From Phytophthora quininea (Eukaryota > Oomycota > Peronosporomycetes > Peronosporales > Peronosporaceae), in the NCBI GenBank assembly GCA_011947345.1, contig JAAVTG010000037.1, positions 21,757 through 85,756 on the forward strand: a stretch of DNA of 64,000 nucleotides, written 5' to 3'. The notes below the pieces were generated by a model. That model searched no databases, had not been told where the DNA came from, and saw nothing but the letters and a program-made list of their open reading frames with translations. A program made the position numbers and the translations under genes. Positions 19,041 through 30,122 of the stretch are shown in pieces. Each line of letters begins with the position of its first letter. Within the stretch, counting starts at the first letter, position 1.

Positions 19041-19715
19041 GGCAAGGGGTCGAGACGAGGAATGCGACCAGACCTGCATGGAGGCAAGGGTCGATGCAAG
19101 ACGACGACAGCAAGAACCGCGGATGGTTCCTGCGCATTTTCGAAGCCAAGAACTCATGGAGTGGAAGGCCCCTAGGGCAACAGTCCAGTGGCATCGGATG
19201 TCGCGAGCGTGGTGGTGAAATGGAATCGAGTCGATGCAGACCGTACTGGCGGTCCATCGAAGGCGTGCTCCTCGAAAAGGCGTTCCCAATATTCGTTCGA
19301 GTGCCACCTACATGCCGCTCACCGAGTGCGTGCTACAATTTCTAGCCCAACAAATCAGTCGTTGGTAGCCAGCCGGAAGTGCTTGGTTCGTGAGCACGAC
19401 GATCCTCTCGGCCGTGGAGGCCAAGGGAGGAATGGAGCGGATCGAAAACATCGTCGGCCTGCCTTGTCGAGCTGATGGTCCGCTTGAAGCTGTGGCGGTA
19501 TGAAGGGCGTTAAATCAAGTGGAAGGTCCGAGGCGTTCGCGATCAGCGGATGATCGGGCGGTGACTCAACTCGCCTCTACTTTTCCGGCGGGAAGGCTAC
19601 TCTTCAATCACGCCAACACCAAGTACCGACGATCTCTCGTTGCATTGAAGACACGTTCTGAGTCGCTACCGATATTACTTTGGCTACTACGCATACACAC
19701 GACGCTCGACAGCAC
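19041..19715. other. Intergenic between two minus-strand genes
   Basis: Contains the upstream flank of the ankyrin gene and the 3' flank of the first GPH transporter. I see no gene, RNA or repeat here. Confidence 0.4.
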
Positions 19716-21131
19716 TTACAGGCTGTACATCTTGATCTTCATGAAGATGGCGGCGGTCAGGAAGCCCAGGGTGGTCATGATCCCACCCAGGAAGACCGGC
19801 AGCTTGTACCCCATAGAGGTGTTGACGATGGCCGTGCCGATGGCGAAGTTGAGAAGTTGGCCAAAGCAGTTGGCCGAGTTGAGTGCGCCCACATACATGC
19901 CAATCTCGATGTCGTCGCCCATGACGTGGATGATCACCGGCACGATGCACGAGAACCAAACGGAAGAAGTCATGCCGCAAATGGCCACGACGAACACGTC
20001 GAAGCCCTTGTTGGTGACCCAGGCCATGATGAGCAGGAACATTTGAGGCACCGTGGACATGGTGAGCACCCACTTGAGACCGAGCTTGCTCACGAGGAAC
20101 GGGATGCACCACGAGTAAATGTAGCCGACAATGTTGTAGAACAGGTCGGCGTTGCCGCCGGCCAGACTGACGCCGTCGTTGTAGGCGTTCTGTTCCTCCG
20201 TGCACGGGTCGCAGGAATCGGCATTCGTTGCTGAGCCGCCGTACACTTCAAGTCCGAAGAACTGACCCTTGTTGCCGTTGTAGGCCGTGTAGCCGTACTG
20301 CACGAAGAAGAAGCCGATGGCGTACACAACGAGCACCTTGGGCAGCGTCTTGACGCCGAGCCACACCGAGTAGAAGGCGTTGTACACCTGGGTCCACGCA
20401 GACACCTGTTCCACCTTGCTGGGGTCAAGCGGAGTCTCGTGCGCGAAGATGGTGGCGACAGCGACGCACACGATCATAATGACGGACAGCGTGCCCATGA
20501 ACCAGTGCATCGATCGGTACGCAGCACCGAAGGCGTCAATGTAGACAGCGACGACGATGGAGCCGAGCGTCGACCAGGCTTGACCGAGAGCAGCTCCCGT
20601 GGTTTGACGGTCGCCGGCGAAGTCGGCCACCAACAGCATGGCTGGAGTTTGCACGACGTTGACGGTGATGTCCATCCAGGCGTAGAAGAAGATGGTGAAC
20701 ACGGACGTCCACGTGCGGTTGTCCGTGCCCGAGTCGCCGAGAGCCTCGCCAATGTCGCTAGTGTAGCCCATGGCGATCCAGCAGATGACACTGAGGATAC
20801 CAGCGACGACGAGGTAGGGGCGACGGCGACCGAAGCGGGAGGTGGTGCGGTCACTGAAGACGCCGATACTGGGGCCGACGATCACGCCGACGATGGGGCC
20901 GATGAACTGCGTGGCTTGCACGGCGGAGTTGGAGAGCATCGTCGACAAGTATGGGCCCAAGGCGGCCCACTGAGCGGACCACGCCATGTTGATGGCCATT
21001 CGAGGCATCGACACGGCCAGCAGCAGCCAAATGGACGGGTGGCCTAGCGGTTGGTCATCGCCGCCAGCGATGGAGCCAGGCTTGGGCGAGGCGTGCAGGT
21101 CGTAGCCTGCCGCGCTTTCGAGGTCCTTCAT
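19716..21131 (-). CDS. GPH/sucrose-transporter-like MFS sugar:cation symporter, copy 1
   Basis: 471 residues, single exon, about 12 membrane segments. The loop between segments 2 and 3 carries SDRTTSRFGRRRPY, the MFS motif A in the form typical of plant sucrose transporters and the glycoside-pentoside-hexuronide family, which move sugars with protons across the plasma membrane. An extracellular Cys-containing loop (NADSCDPCTEEQNAY) lies between the two halves. The start is the ATG at 21131 (MKDLES). The frame extends further upstream but without membrane-protein character. The copy at 24461-25881 is a close paralogue in the opposite orientation. The substrate cannot be told from sequence. Confidence 0.88.
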   Translation of the reverse strand: MKDLESAAGYDLHASPKPGSIAGGDDQPLGHPSIWLLLAVSMPRMAINMAWSAQWAALGPYLSTMLSNSAVQATQFIGPIVGVIVGPSIGVFSDRTTSRFGRRRPYLVVAGILSVICWIAMGYTSDIGEALGDSGTDNRTWTSVFTIFFYAWMDITVNVVQTPAMLLVADFAGDRQTTGAALGQAWSTLGSIVVAVYIDAFGAAYRSMHWFMGTLSVIMIVCVAVATIFAHETPLDPSKVEQVSAWTQVYNAFYSVWLGVKTLPKVLVVYAIGFFFVQYGYTAYNGNKGQFFGLEVYGGSATNADSCDPCTEEQNAYNDGVSLAGGNADLFYNIVGYIYSWCIPFLVSKLGLKWVLTMSTVPQMFLLIMAWVTNKGFDVFVVAICGMTSSVWFSCIVPVIIHVMGDDIEIGMYVGALNSANCFGQLLNFAIGTAIVNTSMGYKLPVFLGGIMTTLGFLTAAIFMKIKMYSL

Positions 21132-24100
21132 GGATCTGAAGCTCTGAGGAAGGTGAGGAACCGCTGGGGGCGCTGTGCTCCGGAGGAAGCAAGTTGAGGA
21201 ATGAAAATGGCGCTGGGTTGGGAAGCAATTCAAGCATCCGCTGCAGCATTGCGAACCGATACACCGTACACCACCGCGGCAGGTTTTCGGTGGGGCCGCA
21301 GCGGTTGCAGCCGCTTTCTCGTCGGGCGAGCCCGACGTTAAGAGCACTGCAGCATGGAGCAGGATTTGACTTCGGTCAACAACAAAGCAGACATCTCACT
21401 TGCCCCGCACACCTCGCGGCAACGCGATCTATCAGCCAAATCATTGAAGAACGGATACGTGGCCACCTGTCCGGCTCGCCGTGGGGATCCAATTCAGCAG
21501 CATTTTGTCTGCAGCGGTGCGTCGTGTATTTCTCTTGGCGGCTTCAAAGGCGAAGGTTGTTGCGCTGGAGCTTGCATTGAAGTCGTTCGGTTCGTCCGCA
21601 CTGCAACATGATGGTCGATTAACGGAGAGTGGGACGGTGGGCGCGGTGCTAACGCGGCAATCTTTGCTGCGTGGATTGCAGTTCGGTTTGAACTTGTCGA
21701 GCCAGATGCCAAGTCACGCCACGCTCAGCGAGACTCATCAAGTCGCTGCTGGCTTGGCAGTCTGTACGGGTAAAGGATAACGTGACGGCGCTGTAGCGGC
21801 GCCTCGAAGCCTTTTGGCGACGGAAATTGCTTGTCGGCGTCGACCAGAGTGGCCCGAGTGGCCTGGGTGGCAAAGTGTCAAGTCGATCAGGACGAGCTGC
21901 ACTTGAAGACACTTGATCTTTTCCGGTGGGACTTCCGGCTCGGTGCACCGCTCCATGTTTACCAGGGTCTACTAAACAGCACCCACTTTCCGGCGCCGAA
22001 CTGCGGCAGCGCGTTTCCACTTCGAGGAAGGCATGGGCCACTGGCTTGCGGCACTACTCGTACTAGCCTCGGAACCTCGCCCGAGCGGTTGTGACAGCAG
22101 TGAGCAGTGAAGGCGTGCAACATCCAAACCATGGCTTACAGTTCCACGTGATACCCAAAGAGCAGAACGGAGTTGGTGCGTTGTAGTGACTGTCGCTGGC
22201 TGTTGATCATTGTCTTCAGTAGTTCAAGACAATCCCCATCTCGGATAGAGCAAGCGTAGCAGCTCGAGGAAGCTGTGCTGTGGGCCTTGGTGAACTCCAC
22301 CCTGGAGCCCATGCTATCGATTGGATCACCGCCTGGCAGCGCTATCGAAGATGCTGCTGAGCCTGAGCAACAACCGACGCTTGTTAAACCACCCCGAAGG
22401 CGCTTCAACTTGAAGCCCAAGTGCCTCCACACATATTCGATTACCGAGAAGCTACCGATCCTCAGGACTCTTTTGTTGTCAGCCGTGATGCGGCCTTCAA
22501 GCATCTCGGTCGGCACCGCTCGCTAGCTGCACCAAAGCGTCACTTTAGCCTCCGGTGCTGTAGTCGGAGCTGCTACTCTCTCGATGGCATTCGCACAAAC
22601 CGCTTCAAGTCTTCGGCTGTACTGTAGATGTCAGGGTTACGTCAACGCAGCGGACAGATTTGATACCGCCGCGCTGAAAGCCCTCCACGCAAGAGCACCG
22701 ACCTCCACAAGGGATCTGCTTCGGCATCTTTTCCTCGGCCATAGGTCGATTGCTGCCGAATTCATCCCCACCAAACTGCAGCCGCGCAGCCAGTTGATCC
22801 CCATCTCGAAGTGAAGTCTGCGCACCCTATCCAGAGAGACGACGTAGGATCGACGCAGCTAAAATCTGAATGCGGCACATGTACGTTTCCGAGACAATCT
22901 CGCGACTAACAACTTTGACATTTTTTCTTGCCGCCGCTTGTCATGCTTTCCGGTAGCACAAGCAGCGACGTCTCCATGTTCGACCACATTGTACGGCGCT
23001 TCATGACGCACTACACGTGTAGGAGAGCTGCCGCGCGCTTGAAGTTGGTCCCACCAGTTCGCTTTTTGCACCTTGTTTGTCCATGTTCACCAATTACCGC
23101 CGTAAAGAAAATAATCAGCAAAAATGCAAGCACGGATTTACACTCTAGTTGTTCGCACCACGCCAAGAATGCCGCAAATGTTGGGAAATCTCGTCAGTCA
23201 GAACAACATCTCCACGATTCTTCTCGCTAAAACACAAGAATTATCAGCTTTATTTTGTACGGTATGGATAGTCGACCAGAAAAAAGTTTGAATTGGACAA
23301 ATCGGTTCTCGCCGAAAAGTAATGTCGGCTGTGGCGGGATGCTCATCGCATCGCAGCGATGCCTCTTGCTTTGTGTTCACGAGGGAGTTTATGCCATAAT
23401 TATAGGCTTCACGGGGCCAAGGACGTCTTACAAAACGTTATTTTCGCGTGGGGAAATCAGTCAAGGCTGGGGGCATGGCATGGCAGCACAATTGAGTTGT
23501 GCTCGGACCTTACTCTTTACGGGACATCACCCTACCCCACCTCACCTCACGGCCTGAACAAGAAGGCCAAGAAGGCCGCGGACGGCGATGAGACCACTCG
23601 TCACTCCGCTTCAACCGAGATCACATGGGATCGTCGACGTTATCATCAACGCGAGAAAGCCATCGAAAAGCGTTCGTTGAGGCGAACAAGTCGCCTGGGA
23701 GTCCAACTGCCAGCGCCTGCTTGTCTGCAGACAAACAGACACTTGGACAGATCGCCGGACGCAAAAGTGCTGCTCCCGCAAATTGACAGCAGCACTGGCC
23801 GGGCCGATTTGCTGGAACGCGGGGTCACTTTCTTCAACCTTGAAGCGCCAGGAGCTTCCACTCAAATCGGATTGCCTCGCGGATAAAACATACTTTTCCG
23901 AGTTACATCCTCGGGTTTTGCAGACTCTGGCTGGAGAAACTTTACCCACAGAAGTTGGGCTAGCTGTGGTTGAACTTTTCGACGCGGTTTTGAGCTTTTC
24001 TCGGAGGAACCTCAGAATCGCCAAGCAGCAGCGGCCAGCTGGTTCAGAAACGGCAGCCCCGCTCAGTTCTCTCCTACTGTGTAGTGCCGTTTGGACTGCA

Positions 24101-24460
24101 CTACAGTTCTGCGAGTTCTCGGTTGGCCATGTCTGCAGGACGCGCTTTCTCCTCGGAAAAAAGCCGCTGATTTTAGTAAAAAGTGTCAAGGCCCTTCCTT
24201 TGAGCGCTGCAACCGCACACGAGTTGCTGACATCGTTCGTCTGCTGCACGCAGATGCCCAGAACCTATCCGACGTTGCACATAAATCTACTGCCAGATGG
24301 CGGAGACCGACACAAAGGTCTCGGCTTTCCTTCGGCCGTGTGCCACCGCGAACGTTGTGCACTCTGGTGGGGATTGAAGCACCGCCGACGTGCCGGCAAC
24401 AATTGTCCATTCTCCAATTCGCTCTCTGCAGCGCACAACAACCACAACAACTCTTCCACG
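21132..24460. other. 3.3-kb region between divergent GPH paralogues
   Basis: This should contain both promoters. Open frames on both strands are short and none shows a domain or conserved splice chain. A segment near 22350-22480 resembles a basic helix-turn-helix leader of a decayed transposon but is too short to call. I see no tRNA or clear repeat array. Confidence 0.4.
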
Positions 24461-25881
24461 ATGAAGGACATCGAGGCCGGCACCCCGGGTACGACCTGCA
24501 CGCTTCTCCCAAGCCCGGCTCCGTGGCCGGCACCGGCAATGAGGAACCGTTGGGACACCCGTCGATCTGGCTGCTGTTGGCCATCTCGATGCCCCGTATG
24601 GCCCTGCAGATGGCCTGGTCCGCTCAGTGGGCTGCCTTGGGCCCGTACCTGTCGACCATGCTGCCCAACTCCGCCGTGCAAGCCACGCAGTTCATCGGCC
24701 CCATCGTCGGTGTGATCGTCGGCCCCAGCGTCGGCGTCTTCAGTGACCGCACCACCTCAAGACTCGGCCGTCGTCGTCCGTACTTGATCGCCGCCGGTGT
24801 GCTCAGTGTCATCTGCTGGATCGCCATGGGCTACACGAGCGAGATCGGCGAGGCTCTAGGCGACACTGGCACCGACGACCGCACGTGGACGTCGGTATTC
24901 ACGATCATCTTCTACGCCTGGATGGACATCACGGTCAACATTGTCCAGACCCCGGCCATGCTGCTGGTGGCCGACTTCGCTGGCGACCGTCAGACGACCG
25001 GCGCTGCTCTGGGCCAGGCCTGGTCGACGCTCGGCTCCATCGTCATCGCTGTCTACATTGACGCCTTCGGTGCTGCGTACCGATCGATGCACTGGTTCAT
25101 GGGCACGCTGTCTGTCATTATGATCGTGTGCGTCTTGGTCGCCTGCCTGGCCGCGCACGAGACTCCGTTGGACCCGAGCAAGGTGGAACAAGTCTCAACT
25201 TTCGAGGCTGTTAAGAGTGCCTTCCAGTCGGTGTGGCTCGGCATCAAGACGCTGCCCAAGGTGCTTGTCGTCTACGGTATCTGCTTCTTCTTCGTGCAGT
25301 ACGGCTACACGGCCTACAACGGCAACAAGGGTCAGTTCTTCGGACTTGAAGTGTACGGCGGCTCAGCAACGAATGCCGATTCCTGCGACCCGTGCACGGA
25401 GGAACAGAACGCCTACAACGACGGCGTCAGTCTGGCCGGCGGCAACGCCGACCTGTTCTACAACATTGTCGGCTACATTTACTCGTGGTGCATCCCGTTC
25501 CTCGTGAGCAAGTTCGGTCTCAAGTGGGTGCTGACGCTGTCGACCATCCCACAGATGTTCCTGCTCGCCATGGCCTGGGTCACCAACAAGGAATTTGACG
25601 TGTTCGTTGTCGCTATCACTGGCATGACCTCCTCGGTCTGGTTCTCGTGCATTGTGCCGTGCATCATCCACGTCATGGGCGACGACATCGAGATCGGCAT
25701 GTACGTCGGTGCACTGAACTCGGCCAACTGCTTCGGTCAGCTGCTCAACTATGCTATCGGTACGGCCATCGTCAACACCTCTATGGGCTACAAGCTGCCG
25801 GTCTTCCTTGGTGGCGTCATGTCGGCCATTGGCTTCTTCGTGTCGGCGATCTTCCTGAAGATCAAGATGTACAGCCTGTAA
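24461..25881 (+). CDS. GPH/sucrose-transporter-like MFS sugar:cation symporter, copy 2
   Basis: Paralogue of the gene at 19716-21131, differing by scattered substitutions over its full length. It has the same SDRTTSRLGRRRPY motif, the same Cys loop and the same C-terminus (KIKMYSL). The ATG at 24461 (MKDIEA) clearly corresponds to the start of copy 1, but the frame shifts 26 bases later at the CCCC of 24483-24486, before GYDLHAS. One more C gives a 473-residue protein aligned from its first residue with copy 1. No other in-frame ATG exists upstream of the first membrane segment, so I consider the shift a sequence error rather than a different start. Role: proton-coupled sugar uptake, by family. 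Confidence 0.85.
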
Positions 25882-26047: not shown

Positions 26048-29000
26048 TCAAGTGTTGCATGATCTACCTGACTTTGCAGTCTGCATCATTTTACTACTGT
26101 AGTAGTCGGCAAGGACAAAAGGAGTTTCCAATATTGACCACATATTATGACTTGGCCCCCTCTTTTCTCCTGCATCTACCTCCGCGTCCACGTTAGCATT
26201 GGGCTTGGTTTCTTCGGGTGGATTGGCATCCTGTGGCTGCTCAACAGGCTCGCTCTTTTCGGGCCCGTCGCTTTCGGCGTCTGCAACTGCAATGTCCGTC
26301 GCCGTACCCTCTACAGCAGCGTCTCCGGTGGTGCTCTCGTCGTTGTTGCTGGCGGAATCCACCTTGACAGATTCGTCTGCTTCAGCAGTCGCGTCCTCCA
26401 TGTCTACATCTTCGCTTTTGGCAGCATCGCCAACATCTTCCATTCGTACATCCGTGTCAACGTGTTCTCCGCTTGCCGTTGTACTCAAAGTGGCTACATC
26501 TTCAACGGTACTTTCAGTTTTTACGGCGCTGTTGTCATCCTCAGCAGGAGCGTCTGATTTCCCAGCAGAATCGCTGTTTGCCACTCCAACGGGTTTGGTA
26601 TCATCATTCTTTACGTGGCTTTCAACAGACCCGTTTGTTTCAGTCTTCCTGACTGTGTCGTTAGCGTCAACAATTGGTTTCATATCCTCATCGAGAGCTG
26701 CTTTACCATTCTCAGCAATGCCACTTGAAGCATCCTGTTCAGTTGTCGAGTCCGCGTTAGCTTCCGTCTTAACCGTCGCCTTGTTGTCTTCGCTTTTGAC
26801 CTGGGCGGCGGCCTCTTCAGATTTAATCTCAGAACTCGCAACTTCAGTTTGTACAGCGCAATCGGATGGCAGGACTTTGAACAACTCCTCATGCACCTGT
26901 GGACACTTGGAAAGCATCGGTTCATAGAAATGCCGGCAACCTGCAAATACCTCACTATCCCAGAGTGCCTCAAACTCCTCCAAGGAAGAACAGCACAAGC
27001 GCAGAACGCCTAATGTTTTCTTGACGTACAGAGTTGCCGTGGCGTCCACTCCCGTTGCAGAGCCTGCCTTCTCTATCAGCGCGAGCAGCGAAGACAGCAT
27101 CATCACCGCTTTTCCTGGAAAACGGGAACCGGGAAGCCCTTCACGATGTGTTGGCGTTTTCGTTTCTTAGATTTTACGTCCTCGCTCTCGTCCTCGACAG
27201 GGAGGATCATCGGATAAAGCAACAGCAGACCCAGTTGCTCGTTTTGCAGCTTTCATCCGTTTTGCCAGCACGTCCACGAAGAACCCGTCGACGATTTGCT
27301 TCCACACAGGGAGGGCCATTAATTGCTCTCCAACTGTCATCGTCACCTCGCCGTTTTCTGCTGCACTCGGGCCACTGTCGGAGTTGTTGCTGGTGCTACT
27401 GTTTGGGATAGCAGTCTTAACCTGATCCAACACGACTTGAGCGACTGCGTGGAGCAACACACGATCACGCAGCAATGCATCGTCTTCAGCAACAAGCAGA
27501 TGCTGAAGCAACTGAGCACTGGCATCAACCTGGTGATCCACCAGACACTGTACAGCAAACGATTTGGTCATTGCGCGAATAGCCGAGCTGGCGCGTAGGA
27601 CGTTCTCCCACAGCATCGCGTTCAGAACATCTTCCTTGGCTTTAGATTTGGAGTCGCGCTGTAACCCCTGTGGGAAAGCATAGTACACACGAAAGCTAAC
27701 CATTGATCGCAACAAAAGCGGCAAAACCACCCGCATGGTGACGACTTGAGGAGCGCGCAATACAAAATCCTGCTTCCGGATCATACGACGTACGCTGGAC
27801 GGGTTCCCGATCTGAAGTAGCTGCACGAGCGCCCGGCAAATTAAATTATCCGTGGGCAGTTCCATTTTCTGCCAACATAACACCAAATTCTTCATGAGAG
27901 CCTCACAGAGAAGTTGCTTCACTAGCGGGTCCGACAATATCAGCGCTACATCCGCCAGGAGATCGTCACATAACCCTTCTGGGATCATGCCGGATTGATC
28001 CACGTCACCAAAATCTTTAATAGACACGATCCCCGAGCTAGTAAGCATGCTGAGGGCTTCACTGGAAGGACCAGCTCCAGCTTTGCGGCGCTTCTTAGTG
28101 CGGATTCGCTGCGGTTCACCTCGCAACGCTGTGGCATTCCGCTCGATTAGTTCGTTGCCTCGCTTGCCAATGCGCTTTCCTTCCTTGTAGAAGATCGTTG
28201 TGTCAGGGTTGAACGTCATACAGTTGCGGATCATCAGATTGAAATCTGCCACAAACGCGTCCAACGTCTTGTACTTGCCGCGCTTCGCCTTCTTCTGCAT
28301 GGTGGACAAGTCCATAGGATCTTTGATGATCTCGCGATATTTTGGCACGTCATCCGGAACAGGTTCCGCAAAAATTAACCGGGCATCCGTCTTCGCGATC
28401 TTCTCCAATACAGACAGTAACTCATCCACTGGCGGTGGACCCAACACGACTTCAAAGCTCTCCTCGTCCTCTTCACCCTTCTTCCGGAACTTTTTGTTTG
28501 CTGGCAGATCCGCCGTCCGCAGCCGCCCAATGAATCCCAGCAGTTCATGAAGCTGTGCAATCTCTAGCGTCTGGTTCTTTAATGCACGATCCAAAAACCA
28601 AATAAATTTGTGCAATGGATCTGTCCGTAGCAATGGAGTCGTCTTGTCACGCTGGAGATTCGCCAGATCACTACGCATAGCACCGAGAAACGGCACGTAG
28701 TCTACATAATCTTTGGGGTGGTTGTTTGTCGTGCTGCCAGGGATGTTCGCGGATACCACGTAACCGCGCCAGATCTCTAAGGTCGATAAATACAGAGACT
28801 CTGAGTCGCCAATCACCTCGTTCAACTTCTCTAGCGCCGCGTTGTTGCGTCGGCGGTCGTCTGGAGAATATAGCGGATGCCGTTCACTACTAAATCCAGA
28901 CGATGAAGTCGACGACCCTACAGCGTCAGCTGCGGAGGGGACGTGACTCGATACGTTCCACAAACCTCCACCTGCAGCTTCATCAAGGCTGCGCTTCCTG

Positions 29001-29715
29001 GTATTGTTGCCCACTCGCACACTGTTTCTCCGTGTCAACGGTCGATTCGCAGTACCATTCGGGTGGTTCAAATACCACGCCAGTTGCTCATCCACATATT
29101 CCTTCGTGCATTCCTCCACCAGCAGCTGCAGCTCTCTCCTATCCACCTGCAAGATCTTCCGCCGCACATGCACTGGCAGCTCGGCCAAGATCCGGCGGTT
29201 CTCCGTCAGCTCCCGTAAATACATCTCGGGCGTGTCTTCCTGTCTCGCCAGTACTGCGATTGGGATGGCTCGCAGCTCTCTAAACTCAATATACGGGAAC
29301 GTCTGCTCCAGCACTCTGGGCAGCTCGCTCTGCGGGAGATCCGCGATGCGCAGCAGCATCTCGCGCTTCATAGCATCCAGCAACGATTGGTACATGCTGG
29401 ACCGCCGCATCTGCAGCAGATCCAGCAGCTCCACGGCGGGCGTGAACGTCGTGGGCTGCTCCTTCTTGCGGCCCTCCTTCGTGCGTGCGAACAGCTGCGC
29501 ATGGGCGTCGGCCACGCCGTGGGCCGCTTGGAAGTCTCGGATGGCCACCTCGATGTTGGGCGCCGTGCTCAGCAGCTCCTTGACGGCGGCGCCGCCGCGC
29601 GCGCCGATCAGCAGCTTCTTCTGCGCCTCCTCGCGCTCGCTGGCGCTGGACACGCTGAGGAGCGCGGCAGCTTGAGCTTGAGTTTGAGCTTGAGCCCGTC
29701 GCCTGCCTCGCTCAT
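26048..29715 (-). CDS. NELFB: NELF-B (COBRA1) homologue with an internal bromodomain
   Basis: NELF-B is a core subunit of the negative elongation factor that holds RNA polymerase II at promoter-proximal pauses. Exon 1 is 29715-27178, exon 2 is 27114-26048; a 63-base intron (GTAAAA...TTCCAG, 27115-27177) joins them in matching phase. Residues ~60-390 resemble NELF-B: FQAAHGV near the N-terminus, then LLDAMKREMLLRIADL, and DPLHKFIWFLDRALK matching the family's DPCHKFTWCLDA. Residues ~425-520 are a BRD7/9-like bromodomain: FAEPVPDDVPKYREIIKDPMDLSTM, then NCMTFNPDTTIFY with the acetyl-lysine Asn. NELF-B similarity resumes at ~575 (LLADVALILSDPLVKQLL). The last ~300 residues are acidic and low in complexity. 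The ATG at 29715 needs one base restored in the CCC at 29695-29697 (sense GGG) to connect; otherwise the only start is a GTG at 29653. Confidence 0.8.
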
Positions 29716-30122
29716 GTCTGCGGCCTCGCTTCTCTTTGTGTCTGGGGAGCGGCGGGCTGCGGGGAAGAGCGGATCGTCTTCTCTTGGGCTTGGAGGCTTG
29801 GGACGGCTGGCTCTTGGCTTGGCTTGAGGCGGAGAGGGGAATTTCAATACTATGTCTGGTTGCCTGGTGGGTCTTTTACAATGGGGTACCGTGCACACTT
29901 TTTAGAAGAGCCCTGCGCAAATCCGGTCTTCCCATTGGCCAAAAAATGTATTTCACTGCTGCCCCTTCCGCACAACTCGCCAGATTTGAAGAAGCGAACT
30001 TCATGTACTTGCCGAGCACAACCGCATTTGTAGTGCTGGAAGACCTCGAGACTATCATCGGAGTTGGTCCCAGAGACATACATTTCGAGACCGCAGTGCT
30101 AGAGTACGTGGCACTTCGAGGT

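Follow-up and report, generated by a model that had tools for sequence, protein, structure and literature searches.

In animals, NELF-B holds RNA polymerase near gene starts and is the scaffold subunit of the negative elongation factor (NELF). BET proteins likewise connect acetylated chromatin with the pausing of RNA polymerase II (Pol II); one of them, BRD4, is a protein of its own and has its bromodomains in tandem. Herein, a NELF-B gene with a bromodomain embedded within it is described from the oomycete Phytophthora quininea. In contrast to BRD4, its single bromodomain forms part of the pausing-factor subunit itself. The gene lies in a 64,000-nt stretch, called the window below (assembly GCA_011947345.1, contig JAAVTG010000037.1, positions 21,757-85,756 of the forward strand). 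The searched genome comprises 87 Mb in 993 contigs, with the window on contig C352 and a second copy of the gene on contig C570. Chivu et al. report that NELF-B and NELF-C/D are widely distributed in eukaryotes and suffice for some pausing, and that NELF-B was lost in several lineages (PMC11482795). Ciliates are reported to be without NELF in a review (PMC12716044).

NELF-B sequence on both sides of a bromodomain

The main open frame of the gene has 902 codons, while 200 first-order Markov simulations of the 6 kb around it gave no frame longer than 341 codons. The features are listed below in window positions, with residues numbered as in alignment A2, which contains the window protein and 40 relatives.

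27170..29875 (-), main open frame, 902 codons with no stop, carrying N-flank NELF-B, bromodomain and C-flank NELF-B
29653..29715 (-), conserved oomycete N-terminus (MS..LKLKLKLP), in a frame different from the body in both copies
28505..29401 (-), N-terminal NELF-B region, residues 72-370, from the N-flank profile and the structural model
28460..28504 (-), acidic linker, residues 371-385, mostly of low model confidence (pLDDT < 50 at 373-389)
28115..28459 (-), bromodomain and flanking strands, residues 386-500, Pfam match at 28178-28417
28337-28339 and 28208-28210 (-), bromodomain pocket residues Tyr426 and Asn469, respectively
27995..28114 (-), basic linker, residues 501-540, mostly of low model confidence (pLDDT < 50 at 503-539)
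27410..27994 (-), C-terminal NELF-B region, residues 541-735, from the C-flank profile and the model
26051..27166 (-), C-terminal open frame, 372 codons in the body frame past a stop, resembling the C-terminal part of relatives

Pfam matched COBRA1/NELF-B (PF06209) to the frame in three stretches (E 4.9e-14, 52.5 bits against a cut-off of 22) and the bromodomain (PF00439) over its cut-off at frame residues 487-566 (E 2.7e-22). Each flank was also given its own five-sequence profile, so that the bromodomain could not carry the match. With the N-flank profile, six different NELF-B sequences were matched in the PDB at E 6e-18 to 2e-16, and a single further chain at E 0.68; the alignment to the NELF-B chain ran over residues 43-176 and 191-291. 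The C-flank profile matched the same six NELF-B sequences exclusively, at an E of about 0.002 that is weak alone but specific, and was aligned to residues 295-351. A chance COBRA1 match was ruled out, since the flanks were searched apart and all PDB matches below E 0.5 were NELF-B. The predicted model further contains the NELF-B helical-repeat fold across the N and C parts, as well as a bromodomain fold between them. The original prediction of NELF-B-like sequence on both sides of a bromodomain is confirmed, and its reading as a NELF-B with an embedded bromodomain is supported by the flank profiles, by the fold compared with human NELF-B, by the second copy and by dozens of relatives.

Human NELF-B (COBRA1; PDB 8w8e_V, 8jj6_A, 9j0n_V) is about 20% identical to the oomycete protein over the aligned part. 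Where about three residues part the two aligned stretches of the human protein, the oomycete protein has an insert of about 180 residues (hand count) that includes the bromodomain. Vos et al. 2016 have the N-terminal region of human NELF-B meet the middle region at residue 291 (PMC4940160). With that numbering assumed equal to the numbering of the aligned chains, the insertion point is the turn between these two regions, at residues ~291/295.

The motifs originally quoted are present in the frame, among them NCMTFN with the acetyl-lysine Asn. This residue, Asn469, is invariant in 41/41 A2 rows together with Phe415, Pro418 and Tyr426. Asn469 and Tyr426 of the ZA loop, which we take to be acetyl-lysine pocket positions, are consistent with the BRPF1/BRD1 alignment. 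Among nine segments of A2, the mean share of the commonest residue was highest in the bromodomain (0.858), followed by the first part of the C-flank (0.851).

The class of the bromodomain was compared in three ways. The phmmer scores were 62 bits for both BRD1 and BRPF1, 60 for BRD9 and 53 for BRD7. In the structure comparison, the Foldseek top match was BRD9 and the VIA-align top match was BRPF1/BRD1, with differences within about 1 Z. The best PDB matches included structures of BRPF1 bromodomains together with H4K5acK8ac and H3K14ac histone peptides. In a tree of 34 rows, which covered BRD1 and BRPF1 but left out BRD7/9, the NELF-B bromodomains grouped with BRD1, BRPF1 and one bromodomain of the same genome (two near-identical loci) with support of 97/92; the NELF-B rows by themselves had support of just 94/85. 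The genome has at least 41 bromodomain matches, and the tree used 27 of 39 others, 12 being dropped because they were judged, from equal or near-equal scores, to be repeats, or were judged to be fragments. By these comparisons the domain is of the BRPF/BRD9 class. The earlier assignment as a bromodomain holds, and its specific BRD7/9 label was too narrow, as BRPF1/BRD1 match equally or slightly better. From the BRPF1/BRD1 and BRD9/BRD7 bromodomains the present one differs in its host protein: in the oomycete NELF-B, COBRA1 is the sole other Pfam domain over its cut-off, with no PHD, PWWP or BRD7/9-specific domain.

Conservation in oomycetes and in a second copy

The protein search returned 54 clusters: 45 with both Pfam domains, two partial bromodomain-only clusters and seven unrelated bromodomain proteins. 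The two-domain clusters include Phytophthora, Nothophytophthora, Peronospora, Plasmopara, Bremia, Hyaloperonospora, Peronosclerospora, Globisporangium, Pythium, Lagenidium, Albugo and Aphanomyces. All named ones are oomycetes, with a few species repeated; the remainder are lgn or jgi records. Because Aphanomyces and Albugo share the layout, the simplest reading of these sequences is that an ancestral oomycete NELF-B gained the bromodomain before the main oomycete orders diverged. The Aphanomyces bromodomain (P0052) is 47% identical to that of the window over 105 positions. Both families are present in all 41 A2 rows, with COBRA1 matched in each at E <= 0.01. A2 left out five two-domain clusters: P0021 and P0042 are further P. 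cactorum records, P0030, P0033 and P0042 are partial, and P0007 was left out without good reason.

P0043, P0044 and P0045 have the bromodomain alone in Pfam and aligned to 40-56% of the query, while P0047-P0050 and P0053-P0059 are bromodomain proteins covering 6-11% of it. The protein search with the N-flank profile returned five proteins: P0042 with both domains, P0043 and P0044 with the bromodomain only, P0060 with COBRA1 only (a 318-aa fragment from a 1,185-base contig) and P0061 (198 aa, no domain listed). About 8,000 candidates were scored in each protein search, and animal NELF-B was not returned by any of the three. These searches are therefore uninformative on the insert in diatoms, brown algae and other stramenopiles.

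The copies on C352 and C570 are 97.6% identical over 6.3 kb. Over 805 shared-frame codons, 31 synonymous and 12 nonsynonymous differences were found. The resulting pN/pS of 0.12 indicates purifying selection between the copies, both of which therefore look constrained. Within the 135 codons of the bromodomain there are two synonymous and two nonsynonymous differences, too few to judge selection. The Pfam COBRA1 model gave two matches genome-wide, the window gene and the C570 copy, at just 24.3 and 23.3 bits, so the model could miss a diverged NELF-B. With each flank as a protein query against the genome, these two loci were recovered and a third was not found at E <= 1. A NELF-B without the bromodomain was likewise not found by the Pfam model and flank queries, which a very diverged paralogue could escape. 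The likeness between C352 and C570 stops abruptly at window position ~30002, just upstream of the gene; on C570, the next 2.2 kb past this break (segment L009:1-2230) had no reported blastn match to the window.

No description of the architecture was originally known. This stands for the searches made of the open-licence PMC literature, which brought up no description of a bromodomain or other chromatin-reading domain in NELF-B. It does not extend to database names, which already join or imply the two domains: a Plasmopara halstedii record is named 'putative bromodomain, cofactor of BRCA1', and one from P. infestans 'Cofactor of BRCA1 (COBRA1)'. The parts of Chivu et al. covered here do not mention oomycetes, Phytophthora, stramenopiles or bromodomains (PMC11482795). 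Throughout the sampled oomycetes, an acetyl-lysine recognition module is covalently part of a pausing subunit, so that a direct action of acetylation on the pausing factor would be addressable by one loss-of-binding change. The oomycete NELF-B differs from the human protein, and the lineage includes major crop pathogens.

NELF partners and the predicted role of the bromodomain

NELF-C/D (TH1) was matched on contig C578 four times over several exons, with three matches over the cut-off and three pieces confirmed on rescan. The NELF-A N-terminal domain (NELF-A_N, PF23553) was found at two places, on contigs C660 and C355 (segments L016 and L017); the C355 match, in an open frame at L047:1764-2792 (+) with E 2e-7, was confirmed on rescan. 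HEXIM gave no genome match, but the control genomes were silent too, so this is not evidence of absence. Two WW domains (Pfam E 1.9e-20) were observed in an open frame overlapping the first TH1 frame, and a TCERG1-WW match in the same frame was below its cut-off.

L045:1034-1654 (+), WW frame, and L045:1167-3828 (+), TH1 frame, both within C578:590000-595500, from Pfam

A WW-WW-NELF-C/D fusion is plausible, although its two parts do not share a frame and lie close to a run of A.

We favour, as the probable reading, that an ancestral NELF-B gained a BRPF/BRD9-class bromodomain, so that the scaffold on paused Pol II would be tethered via acetylated tails. The NELF-B scaffold would keep its role on paused Pol II. 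The bromodomain, attached by flexible linkers to the lobe whose mammalian counterpart is close to the +1 nucleosome, would bind acetylated histone tails or, alternatively, an acetylated elongation factor. NELF would then be tethered or retained at acetylated promoters, and acetylation would tune pause strength directly, beyond the action of separate BET proteins. The mammalian NELF-BE lobe is close to the nucleosome (PMC11881899). The proposed coupling of pausing to acetylated histones is partly supported, in that a predicted binding fits the anatomy and the published mammalian structures; oomycete pausing may thus respond directly to chromatin marks.

The main rival is that the bromodomain reads an acetylated non-histone partner, either an elongation factor or NELF in cis, and acts as an assembly or release switch. 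Bromodomains are able to bind more than histones, the pocket is intact, and the flexible linkers would allow contacts in cis or in trans. However, the BRPF1 complexes with histone peptides and the nucleosome-near position of the mammalian lobe (PMC11881899) argue against this switch, which we regard as unlikely. A purely structural bromodomain, used for protein-protein docking with no role for the acetyl-lysine pocket, would agree with a scaffold able to tolerate a flexibly linked module at a turn, and acetyl-lysine binding is a prediction. The pocket Tyr and Asn are nevertheless kept in 41/41 rows from Phytophthora to Aphanomyces despite the divergence of the P0052 bromodomain, which makes a docking role improbable.

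That the protein works outside the NELF complex as an independent acetyl-lysine reader is very improbable. NELF membership is a prediction, and the partner matches cover NELF-C/D and NELF-A; against an independent reader, this is the only NELF-B locus type found, the genome still has NELF-C/D and NELF-A_N matches, and both sides of the insert keep the NELF-B fold. A change of frame close to the start of the gene, and a stop ahead of its C-terminal part, might be expected of two genes fused by assembly or gene modelling. Such an artefact was ruled out almost completely by the single 902-codon frame spanning all three parts, with both flanks in one NELF-B fold, and by the same layout in the second copy and in 45 protein clusters, among which a few species recur.

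Beyond the tethering reading, a broader proposal is possible and remains tentative: the oomycete core NELF may have been rebuilt to read the state of chromatin and polymerase directly. The NELF-B bromodomain would lie close to the +1 nucleosome. Should the overlapping frames form a single gene, the tandem N-terminal WW pair of NELF-C/D would bind the tail of Pol II or an elongation factor rich in proline. Pausing would then be gated by acetylation and phosphorylation within the pausing factor.

Gene limits and neighbouring sequence

The gene was originally placed at 26048..29715. Its body is uninterrupted coding sequence at about 27.17-29.66 kb, while its start lies in another frame and its C-terminus past a stop. 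The start at 29715 is in the non-body frame in both copies, clearly so in comparison with four of five relatives and weakly with one. The stop codon closing the main frame (27167-27169, -) is also in both copies, and the C-terminus of the relatives matches the same frame past it; this comparison covered four of the five, as P0001 gave no C-terminal match. The C-terminal open frame alone had no Pfam match. A likeness in another frame just before the stop at 27167, seen by eye, was not borne out by tblastn of relatives, which aligned this stretch in the body frame across the stop. The start frame change and the stop may be genuine or may come from an assembly fault common to both copies; the region carrying the finding is unaffected.

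An LKLKL-like motif is within the first 80 residues of 41/45 two-domain relatives. Three of the four others are late-starting or partial, and the other is the Aphanomyces model. Adjoining the NELF-B gene, a convergent multi-pass transporter-like frame (named by eye) is at 24085-25881 (+). Part of this region has an 86.6% identical match at window 19715-21131, which suggests a nearby duplicate.
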